Assembly: GCA_029258915.1 (NCBI GenBank)
Contig: JAPDJU010000002.1
Coordinates: 62,001 to 126,000, forward strand
DNA from: Thermoproteota archaeon
GTDB taxonomy: Archaea; Thermoproteota; Thermoprotei_A; EX4484-217-1
Direction of reading: 5' to 3'
Length of the DNA: 64,000 nucleotides
Shown piece after piece: positions 51,082-53,223 of the stretch. The notes under the pieces are model-generated. The model was not told the origin of the DNA. It did not search any database and worked only from the letters and a program-made list of their open reading frames with translations. Numbering within the stretch: the first letter of the stretch is position 1; every line of letters starts with the position of its first letter. A program made the translations under genes and the position numbers.

Positions 51082-52401
51082 TTATGGTAAATTAATTCTC
51101 ATAGGCCAAGGGGTTTCCATCAGTTTATAAGCGAGCTTACAGGGCACCTTCATAACAAATGTCCATATAAATTTATGTGCAGCTATAATGCCTTTACGTG
51201 TCAGCTTTAATATTTCTTTATTGCCTTCAAGAAAACCCAAACTCTTCATAATTCTTAGACTCCACTTAAACGGTTTAGGTAAGGCTTCGAACCCGTAGCC
51301 TAACTTCTCTCTTAGAAAACTTGCATTGATAATTCCTCTGCAAAATAGCTGATCAGCGACAATTCTAGATGTTCTTTCAGATGTGTTAACACTTCTAGCA
51401 ACAGCTACGGGTAATTTATCGTTTAGCAGAGAACGTATATATTCTCTAACAGAGTGTACATTGCACCACTCGTATGTTCCTGTAAATCCGAAGGCGCCGG
51501 CTCCAAGAGCAAGTAACGGACCTGTCATTTCAAGGTTTACTGTAGAATAGTCTCCACCTTTACTCCAAGATTCTATTCTAACCATGTTATAGCTATCTAG
51601 TATTTTTTGAGATAAATTGACGAATTTTTCAAACAATTTAATAGGCTGTCTAACTTTACCTTTAACAGCATTATCCCAGATAATGGCTTGCGGCGTTAAA
51701 AGAGTTGGATATGTCGTTATTTGTGTGGGGTTAAGTTCTACTGCTATCCTTAGGTCTTCTTCCCATATTTTCAGATCTTCGCCGGGTATCATAAACATAA
51801 GATCTATATTTACAAGGTTATAGCCTGCGTTCTTACTGTTCTCCAGTGCTGCTATAGAATCTTCAGGGCCATGTCTTCTGCCCAGTTCTCTAAGTAAGCT
51901 TCTATGGAATGATTGGACACCAATACTAACTTCACTAACGCCGGCATCTCTAAGGGTAAATGTCTTAGATTCATCAGCTAAATCCTCGGGATTAGCTTCA
52001 ATACCGAAATCCGCTTTCCAGTTAAAAGTTGACTTTAATTCTTCAAGAATTACACGCCAGAAGTCTGACTGAGGAATGCTAGGTGTTCCTCCCCCCGCAT
52101 GTGCATCAACAACAACTAAGTCTAAGTCGTTAAGTAGTTTGCCAACCAATTTAATTTCCTTAATTAGGGCTTTAAAGTATTTGTTAAAGGCATTCTCATT
52201 CCAAAACTCACGGTAGTAAGGACAATATTTGCAGAAAGATCTGCAAAACGGGAAGTGAATGTATAAACCAATTTCATGTTCACTAATTTCTCGAATAAGT
52301 TTACAATGCATATTTTCAGTAACTCTTCTAAACTCTATATTGAAAACTTTATCCACTATGAATGACCAAAACTTCCATGTATTTTCATGAACAATTTCCA
52401 C
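51082..52401 (-). CDS. radical SAM protein, HemN/HemW-like
   Basis: A 439-residue radical SAM enzyme: iron-sulfur motif HFPFCRSFCKYC (Cys 53, 57 and 60), then DAHAGGGTPSIP and VSIGVQSFHRSLLRELGR, which follow the coproporphyrinogen dehydrogenase/HemW pattern. HemW-type proteins insert heme; HemN oxidises coproporphyrinogen. No other heme genes are nearby, so the exact role is open. Flanked on both sides by promoter-type non-coding DNA (50886-51081 and 52402-52716). Confidence 0.72.
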   Translation of the reverse strand: MEIVHENTWKFWSFIVDKVFNIEFRRVTENMHCKLIREISEHEIGLYIHFPFCRSFCKYCPYYREFWNENAFNKYFKALIKEIKLVGKLLNDLDLVVVDAHAGGGTPSIPQSDFWRVILEELKSTFNWKADFGIEANPEDLADESKTFTLRDAGVSEVSIGVQSFHRSLLRELGRRHGPEDSIAALENSKNAGYNLVNIDLMFMIPGEDLKIWEEDLRIAVELNPTQITTYPTLLTPQAIIWDNAVKGKVRQPIKLFEKFVNLSQKILDSYNMVRIESWSKGGDYSTVNLEMTGPLLALGAGAFGFTGTYEWCNVHSVREYIRSLLNDKLPVAVARSVNTSERTSRIVADQLFCRGIINASFLREKLGYGFEALPKPFKWSLRIMKSLGFLEGNKEILKLTRKGIIAAHKFIWTFVMKVPCKLAYKLMETPWPMRINLP

Positions 52402-52522
52402 TATAGGTGCACCATTTTAAAATAGTGGGTGCACGCTTAAAGCATTTTTCCCAATAAAATAATAAACTATGCTATAGAGCGTAATTCTTGAGCTTAAAAA
52501 TCATAGTTTCACAATTGAATAG

Positions 52523-52531
52523 TCTTATATA
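52523..52531 (+). promoter_or_regulatory. TATA-like box upstream of structured RNA candidate
   Basis: TCTTATATA/ATT lies about 25 bases before the GTGTGCCGTGAGG segment, at the archaeal TATA-to-start distance. It would start a transcript near 52553. Confidence 0.4.
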
Positions 52532-52552
52532 ATTCGTGATTATTTAGTCAGT

Positions 52553-52620
52553 GTGCCGTGAGGTAAGTCATTCCTCCCATGGGGTCCTCTCATATGAGAG
52601 GAGGTTTCATCACCTCAACT
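52553..52620 (+). ncRNA. candidate structured RNA or leader ahead of the DUF2148 gene
   Basis: Within about 70 bases there are three nested pairings: TGAGGT (52559-52564) with ACCTCA (52612-52617); CCTCC (52573-52577) with GGAGG (52600-52604); and a perfect 16-base palindrome CCTCTCATATGAGAGG (52586-52601) in between, plus CCCATGGG (52576-52583). Some of these are mutually exclusive, as in a switch. The segment is GC-rich against its AT-rich surroundings and follows a TATA-like box. It lies about 100 bases before the next gene. I match it to no known RNA family. Confidence 0.4.
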
Positions 52621-52725
52621 AATATTATTGCAGGGTAGAAAATAAGTTATTTTTCTTACAACGTTATTTGAAGTTGATAGTGTTTAAGTACTGTGTAAAG
52701 TTATTGTTTTAACCGGGTGTATCCT

Positions 52726-53223
52726 GTGATTAGGGAAAATGATTTCTTAAATGAAGTATCTTTACTTGTAGCTAAACTAATGGCTTCCTCAGCTAAAACA
52801 GCTCCTAAAGCTAAAGGAGTAGACAACATTACTGCTGTAATTTTAAGTAAAAAGGAGGAATTAGAAAAATTAGCTAAGAAAATGGAGGAACTGGCTTCAA
52901 AATATGGTAAATTCTATGCTAGAGATTCTAAAAACATTATGAACTCGGATGCAGTTGTCATACTGGGATGTAAAATAGTTAAGCTCAATCTTAAACAGCC
53001 AGAAATTTGGCGTGAAAACATAGACACAGTAGCAAGCATTTTGAATTTAGGGATAGCATTAGGTTCTGCTGCTAAAACAGCTTCAATACATAATGTTGAC
53101 AATAGGATAATGCTAAGCGCAGGTGTAGCTGCTCAAGAACTTAGGATAATAGATGCAGATATAGCTATAGCTATACCTTTAAGCATTAAGGGTAAGAACA
53201 TATTTTTTGATAGAAAATATTAA
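52726..53223 (+). CDS. DUF2148 family protein
   Basis: About 165 residues, matching DUF2148: MASSAKTAPKAKGVDNI near the start, VVILGCKIVKLNLKQPEIWR and LGIALGSAAKTASIHNVDNRIMLSAG. The family is often called ferredoxin-like, but the cysteines expected of a cluster are few here. I start at GTG 52726 (GGGTG upstream) over GTG 52717, which is also possible. Its 5' leader contains the structured RNA candidate. Confidence 0.65.
   Translation: MIRENDFLNEVSLLVAKLMASSAKTAPKAKGVDNITAVILSKKEELEKLAKKMEELASKYGKFYARDSKNIMNSDAVVILGCKIVKLNLKQPEIWRENIDTVASILNLGIALGSAAKTASIHNVDNRIMLSAGVAAQELRIIDADIAIAIPLSIKGKNIFFDRKY

Follow-up and report, generated by a model that had tools for sequence, protein, structure and literature searches.

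Introduction

Archaeal box C/D sRNAs have a size of about 50-70 nt (PMC7994747). A comparative study of such RNAs (PMC4644070) accepts a guide when at least nine consecutive Watson-Crick pairs cover the N+5 position, and it speaks of a double guide when the two targets lie within 100 nt of each other; 262 of the 489 sRNAs treated there are of this kind. For sR88 versus sR39/sR119 of Methanopyrus kandleri the same source proposes a circular rearrangement, in which the two guides were repositioned.

Here we describe an intergenic element from an archaeal genome of 1.6 Mb in 15 contigs. The window, i.e. the whole stretch of DNA that was analyzed, comprises 64,000 nucleotides (C2:62001-126000). 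A sequence-only reading of the window had singled out the element as a promoter-linked structured RNA in front of a DUF2148 gene. Our analysis points, with a probability of about 0.9, to a different gene on the opposite strand, namely a double-guide box C/D sRNA that would direct 2'-O-methylation of 16S rRNA.

Results

The locus and its pairings

The element is located in a 315-base gap between two divergent genes, one for a radical SAM protein (minus strand, 51082-52401) and the other for a DUF2148 protein (plus strand; PF09918, E 6.1e-27). Judged by eye from its relatives, the DUF2148 gene probably starts with GTG at 52726 rather than at 52717; as had been noted, this is some 100 bases past the segment of interest. 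The radical SAM neighbor is present in only 2 of 21 genomes, its own included, so that there is no usable synteny. Just upstream of the radical SAM start the word GGTGCAC occurs twice (52406-52434) and flanks a palindrome-like core, ATTTTAAAAT, which is a possible operator. The gap also includes, by eye, a 19-codon plus-strand frame with an ATG at 52579 and a stop ending at 52638.

The segment 52553-52620 is indeed GC-rich (51% G+C versus 35% in the window); at the threshold used, the 213-kb contig has 12 intergenic clusters of this type, the segment among them. The described pairings were found as well, with an outer stem of 6 bp (TGAGGT 52559-52564 / ACCTCA 52612-52617) and a middle stem of 5 bp (CCTCC 52573-52577 / GGAGG 52600-52604). 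The palindrome, TCCTCTCATATGAGAGGA at 52585-52602, is perfect, but it is 18 bases long and not 16. It is the longest perfect palindrome in the window; palindromes of at least 18 bases are not rare, however, as 16 of 60 simulated windows held one.

The TATA-like word TTATATAA, which precedes the segment by 25 bases, is present too. Since this word is its own reverse complement, it gives no direction and is no evidence for the plus strand; for the same reason the strand-hits counted in the contig, 8 of them intergenic and 18 in all, correspond to 4 and 9 places. In none of the four motif models did it come out among the top four sites on the plus strand of the gap.

Folding of the plus strand is unexceptional and does not go beyond chance. 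The 68-nt segment has a z of -1.01 (32 of 200 shuffles were as good), while 86 nt give -1.64 (7/200) and 148 nt give -1.13 (23/200). On the minus strand, the same 86 nt reach -2.06 (7/200). What does go beyond chance is that the minus strand, beside C/D boxes, is complementary to 16S rRNA.

A proposed minus-strand RNA with C/D boxes and two guides

Read from the minus strand, the predicted RNA has the layout C - D' guide - D' - linker - C' - D guide - D (Table 1). The D' guide starts one base past GUGAUGA and ends one base ahead of AUGA; the D guide ends one base before CUGA. An sRNA of this kind would be transcribed, assembled into an RNP and used in methylation; the words given here as the exact D' and C' boxes are the probable ones.

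Table 1. Features of the candidate box C/D sRNA gene and of its surroundings (positions in the window; 16S positions refer to the SSU locus).
Feature	Position	Strand	Basis and remarks
Box C/D sRNA gene, approximate	52544..52622	-	Boxes, guides, flanking TTAG/CTAA; ends inferred (5' near 52622-52617, 3' near 52544)
UUAG, may form the 5' arm of a weak terminal stem (3' arm CUAA 52547-52544)	52619..52622	-	4 bp; 5 nt from C box
C box GUGAUGA, perfect RUGAUGA	52607..52613	-	Sequence
D' guide ACCUCCUCUCA	52595..52605	-	11 Watson-Crick pairs with 16S 1696-1706; N+5 G1699
D' box AUGA, degenerate, 3/4 of CUGA	52590..52593	-	Choice inferred from spacing
D'-C' linker, long (18 nt)	52572..52589	-	Start continues the 16S target copy UGAGAGGA (52592-52585)
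C' box AUGACUU, degenerate (alternative GGAAUGA 52574-52568)	52565..52571	-	Inferred from spacing and the G157 relative
D guide ACCUCACGGCAC	52553..52564	-	12 Watson-Crick pairs with 16S 1726-1737; N+5 C1729
D box CUGA, perfect	52548..52551	-	Sequence
Candidate promoter AATAACTTATTTTC	52638..52651	-	About 26 nt before likely 5' end; weak motif models
Palindromic TATA-like word TTATATAA	52525..52532	.	Noted in the sequence-only reading

The minus-strand RNA also contains short copies of its own targets. Eight nucleotides of the first target stand beside the D' guide, and 7 nt of the second target (UGAGGUG, 52617-52611) occur at the flank of the C box. The palindrome and the outer stem exist because the guides can pair with these copies in their own RNA; the middle stem is the D' guide paired with the linker.

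Complementarity to rRNA and controls

The element was compared with the rRNA genes of its own genome, and 16S positions were numbered on the SSU locus match of 2196 bases. Both rRNA matches (L022, L023) are longer than the respective models, with 2196 versus 1478 bases for the SSU and 3712 versus 2987 for the LSU; both genes therefore probably carry introns or insertions.

The minus strand has two perfect 16S-complementary runs, the 12 nt of the D guide and the 11 nt of the D' guide. Both exceed nine consecutive pairs and cover N+5, and their 16S targets start 30 nt apart, i.e. within the 100 nt that define a double guide. C1729 aligns with position 1074 in the E. coli copy that was compared (strain A24), which we take to be 1075 in standard E. 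coli numbering; the G1699 site has no clean alignment to this copy. The targets are presumably in the h34-h35 region. The main text of PMC4644070 makes no mention of a site for six site numbers, 1075 and 1043 included. The D guide has a further perfect match of 10 nt to 23S rRNA (LSU locus 1404-1413), which also covers N+5, so that the 16S rRNA is not the sole possible target.

Dinucleotide shuffling of the minus strand gave a complement to rRNA of 12 nt in 7 of 1000 cases; on the plus strand the longest run is 9, a length reached by 678 of 1000 shuffles. When the guide segments were permuted in 20,000 trials, at least 11 pairs were obtained for D' in 79 and at least 12 for D in 15 of them; both together occurred in none. 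Both strands of the 213 kb were scanned for a perfect C box paired with CTGA and accompanied by an rRNA guide of 9 nt, with limits on boxes and spacing that had been chosen with the site already in view. This element was the sole hit, and it has both guides, with targets less than 100 nt apart. The control scans gave one single-guide site with antisense rRNA and two with reversed rRNA; neither gave a double-guide site. With such strict demands on the C and D boxes, the scan misses C/D genes whose boxes diverge. Two GC-rich intergenic segments that the strict scan passed over, at C2 25449 and 210020 (L119, L128), contain repeated GATGA words and look C/D-like by eye.

A distant relative with swapped guides

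The exact D guide followed by CTGA occurs in 1 of 229 genomes of the class, which is the genome of the window. The pattern of C box and D' guide was found in 2 of the 229, namely in its own genome and in G157. The same pattern read backwards, which served as a control, matched 3 genomes; the count by itself hence means nothing.

The G157 site itself (L132, minus strand) has the form of a canonical C/D sRNA: ATGATGA - GGCTTACGGCACT - CTGA - short spacer - GTGATGA - CACCTCCTCTCA - CTGA. Its guides were matched to the 16S rRNA of the window genome only. In this comparison the D guide of G157 forms 12 pairs at the place of the window D' guide, with N+5 off by one (A1700); its D' guide forms 10 consecutive pairs (one G-U) at the site of the window D guide and has the same N+5. 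Both 16S sites are thus matched by the guides of G157; the guide pair is the same in the two RNAs, with the D and D' positions exchanged. The pattern ACGGCAC.{0,2}CTGA, which was picked post hoc, appeared in 1 of 20,000 shuffles of the 98-nt upstream flank of G157. Recurrence among relatives thus amounts to 1 of the 228 other class genomes, and this genome belongs to another family.

Searches beside DUF2148 genes and with the whole element

DUF2148 was found in 16 of the 60 genomes searched, its own included. The 96 other DUF2148 loci of our comparison are 16 from this search and 80 from GTDB contigs; L017 and L028 among them are apparently one contig. Searched with the gap sequence, these 96 loci gave a single match at E <= 1, of 14 bases and with E 0.45. 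A link between the element and the DUF2148 gene, as it had been proposed, is probably wrong. Comparison of the upstream regions by eye, for which the L019 sequence was too short, revealed that several relatives have TATA-like words about 40 nt ahead of the DUF2148 start, as does the window (TTTAAGTA, 52683-52690). Since TTTAAGTA lies between the element and the gene, it would place the DUF2148 promoter downstream of the element. No mention of DUF2148 was found in the literature searched.

Some of the other loci have an upstream element of their own. In genomes of family f4 (L004, L005, L007, L009, L010, L014) we see by eye a common element GTTAACT...AGTTAATTAGCGATTAACTACCC...TTGATCA, 100-200 bases before DUF2148, and a similar stretch is present in L006; it was not seen in the gap of the window.

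In the window no Rfam model matched at gathering level, and at relaxed level the only match was to a microRNA family (E 1.8), beside the site. A covariance search among related archaea had been suggested as a check; it was run with a model of the plus-strand fold, for which one sequence was entered twice, and found no credible relative in 229 class or 398 phylum genomes. In the class genomes it returned 8 matches besides its own at E <= 1. The best of them (E 0.0015) sits within a frame of 602 codons. L111, L113 and L114, which are partly outside long frames, and L112, which overlaps only a 65-codon frame, are at chance level for the amount of sequence searched. With laxer filters, a search of 21 relatives gave only its own site and one of the earlier 8; the 398 phylum genomes, which are partly the same as the class set, gave its own site alone at E <= 0.01.

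Searches at the DNA level led to a 26-base match in G006, which is off the element and within a reading frame. Among the weak matches in its own genome one lies at or just after the end of a frame, and the rest are apparently coding (by eye). The palindrome was absent from viral contigs, where a 17-mer was present in one contig; plasmids and phages had no match to the element.

A candidate promoter on the minus strand

An earlier round of promoter motif learning had resulted in a mixed motif, which was set aside, and four weak models were used. Two of these place the candidate promoter AATAACTTATTTTC among the best 0.5% and 1.1% of intergenic positions; in the other two it is outside the top four minus-strand sites. 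In the survey of Tripp et al. 2017 only 20% of archaeal C/D genes have a TATA-like motif within 50 nt upstream (PMC7994747); a weak promoter is hence no obstacle.

Other candidate elements in the contig

Two further GC-rich intergenic segments, 12774-12890 of L118 (C2 12774) and 17231-17400 of L120 (C2 57231), have best z values of -2.87 and -2.97 and no Rfam match even at E 1; they are candidates for unannotated RNAs. C2 156997-157190 (L125) looks by eye like an intron-bearing tRNA gene; ARAGORN as run reported no tRNA in the contig. A long inverted repeat at C2 135659-135760 (L124), GTGGCCCC...GGGGCCAC, with a z of about -4.9, has by eye the look of transposon ends, and the hairpins at C2 208439 and 209712 (L128) resemble transposon ends too (by eye).

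Discussion

Most probably the element belongs to a known RNA type, as a member not described before, with an ordinary mechanism and two odd details. The binding of L7Ae, Nop5 and fibrillarin is established for the box C/D family, and genes for these proteins are expected in archaea. The three proteins would bind the sRNA at its C/D and C'/D' motifs, the two guides would pair with the neighboring sites in the 16S rRNA, and fibrillarin would methylate the 2'-O of the nucleotide paired to the fifth guide position before each D box, i.e. G1699 and C1729. The odd details are the degenerate D' and C' boxes with a linker that copies a target, and a swap of guides relative to a distant relative. Several points speak against the assignment: D' and C' are degenerate, their linker is long, and the possible terminal stem has 4 bp and is not adjacent to the C box; furthermore, the D guide also matches 23S rRNA, no relative of the whole element turned up in the searches, the backward control matched more genomes than the pattern that led to G157, and the D' guide is predicted to be concealed in the free RNA.

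The sequence-only reading had offered two options, a switch or an autonomous small RNA, and had placed the start of the RNA near 52553 on the plus strand. A small-RNA gene is very probable also in our view, but on the minus strand, where the C/D boxes and the 16S complementarity sit; the strand and the start that had been assigned are probably wrong, and so is the switch. The alternative pairings are those of guides with target-like copies in the same RNA. A leader or riboswitch acting in cis on the DUF2148 gene from a start near 52553 is very unlikely. The pairings on which this idea is built are real, the gene does follow about 100 bases on and a TATA-like box lies 25 bases upstream, but that box is palindromic, the folding is unexceptional, and neither the 96 other loci nor the covariance model revealed a conserved leader; furthermore, a TATA-like word stands, by eye, between element and gene where relatives also have one. 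An equally poor case can be made for another small RNA on either strand, for example an H/ACA-like guide for pseudouridylation. GC-rich intergenic sequence in an AT-rich genome and a long imperfect plus-strand hairpin with internal loops would fit such an RNA; yet nine of ten pocket definitions are at control level against rRNA, the remaining one, on the plus strand, was reached by 2 of 20 shuffled controls and is unremarkable among ten, and Rfam has no match.

Two other explanations, which do without an RNA guide, have hardly any likelihood. The palindrome, as the longest perfect one in the window and with its position between the divergent radical SAM and DUF2148 genes, could be taken for the binding site of a dimeric regulator. 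However, the genome has no second copy even when up to 3 mismatches are allowed, and the arrangement of guide and target copy already accounts for the palindrome. The 12 and 11 letters that the element has in common with 16S could also be remnants of a decayed or rearranged antisense 16S fragment. The minus-strand RNA, however, has the antisense of 1696-1706 first and that of 1726-1737 second; antisense 16S has them the other way round, so that the element is not a colinear fragment. Moreover, each segment is placed one base ahead of a D-type box, and the same pair of segments recurs in the canonical C/D sRNA of G157.

If the element is a double-guide sRNA, it may also be gated by itself. In the predicted fold of the free RNA the D' guide is buried in a hairpin, also at 75 C. 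The 8-nt target copy almost immediately after the D' guide would form a perfect hairpin that conceals the guide, and the D guide would pair through its 5' half with the flank of the C box; the long linker would be a by-product of circular permutation relative to the form in G157. Temperature or RNP assembly could then decide whether the guides are exposed, and with this affect methylation of the 16S rRNA or the folding of its target region. We regard this scenario, which builds on predicted folding, as rather unlikely and mention it as a tentative idea.

With the guide reading, what appeared to be an unknown structured RNA becomes a guide for ribosome methylation that can be put to the test, in a lineage that has received little study. 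It also illustrates that apparent folding of a GC-rich patch can reflect a guide RNA encoded on the opposite strand. Rfam models gave no report of this element; comparing such finds with the rRNA of the same genome is therefore a cheap first check. The locus also adds a case of guide swap between distant relatives and a guide with a target-copying linker.

Compared with the archaeal double-guide C/D sRNAs that have been described, the element has the same perfect C and D boxes, the same type of 16S guides with 11 and 12 pairs over N+5, and targets less than 100 nt apart. Its D' and C' boxes, in contrast, are degenerate, and the linker between them, 18 nt long, opens with a copy of the D' target. 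From C box to D box it measures 66 nt, and with its flanks it may extend to 79 nt, versus the about 50-70 nt given for archaeal C/D sRNAs (PMC7994747). With the C/D sRNA of G157 it shares GTGATGA-C/A-ACCTCCTCTCA, and the remaining guide of G157, judged on the 16S rRNA of the window genome, is directed to the second site of the element and to its N+5 nucleotide; G157 in contrast has its guides swapped between D and D', canonical CTGA twice, a short D'-C' spacer and A1700 at N+5. The pair from M. kandleri, sR88 versus sR39/sR119, consists of paralogs in one species with other targets, but the repositioning of guides proposed for it is of the kind that seems to hold for G157 and the window.
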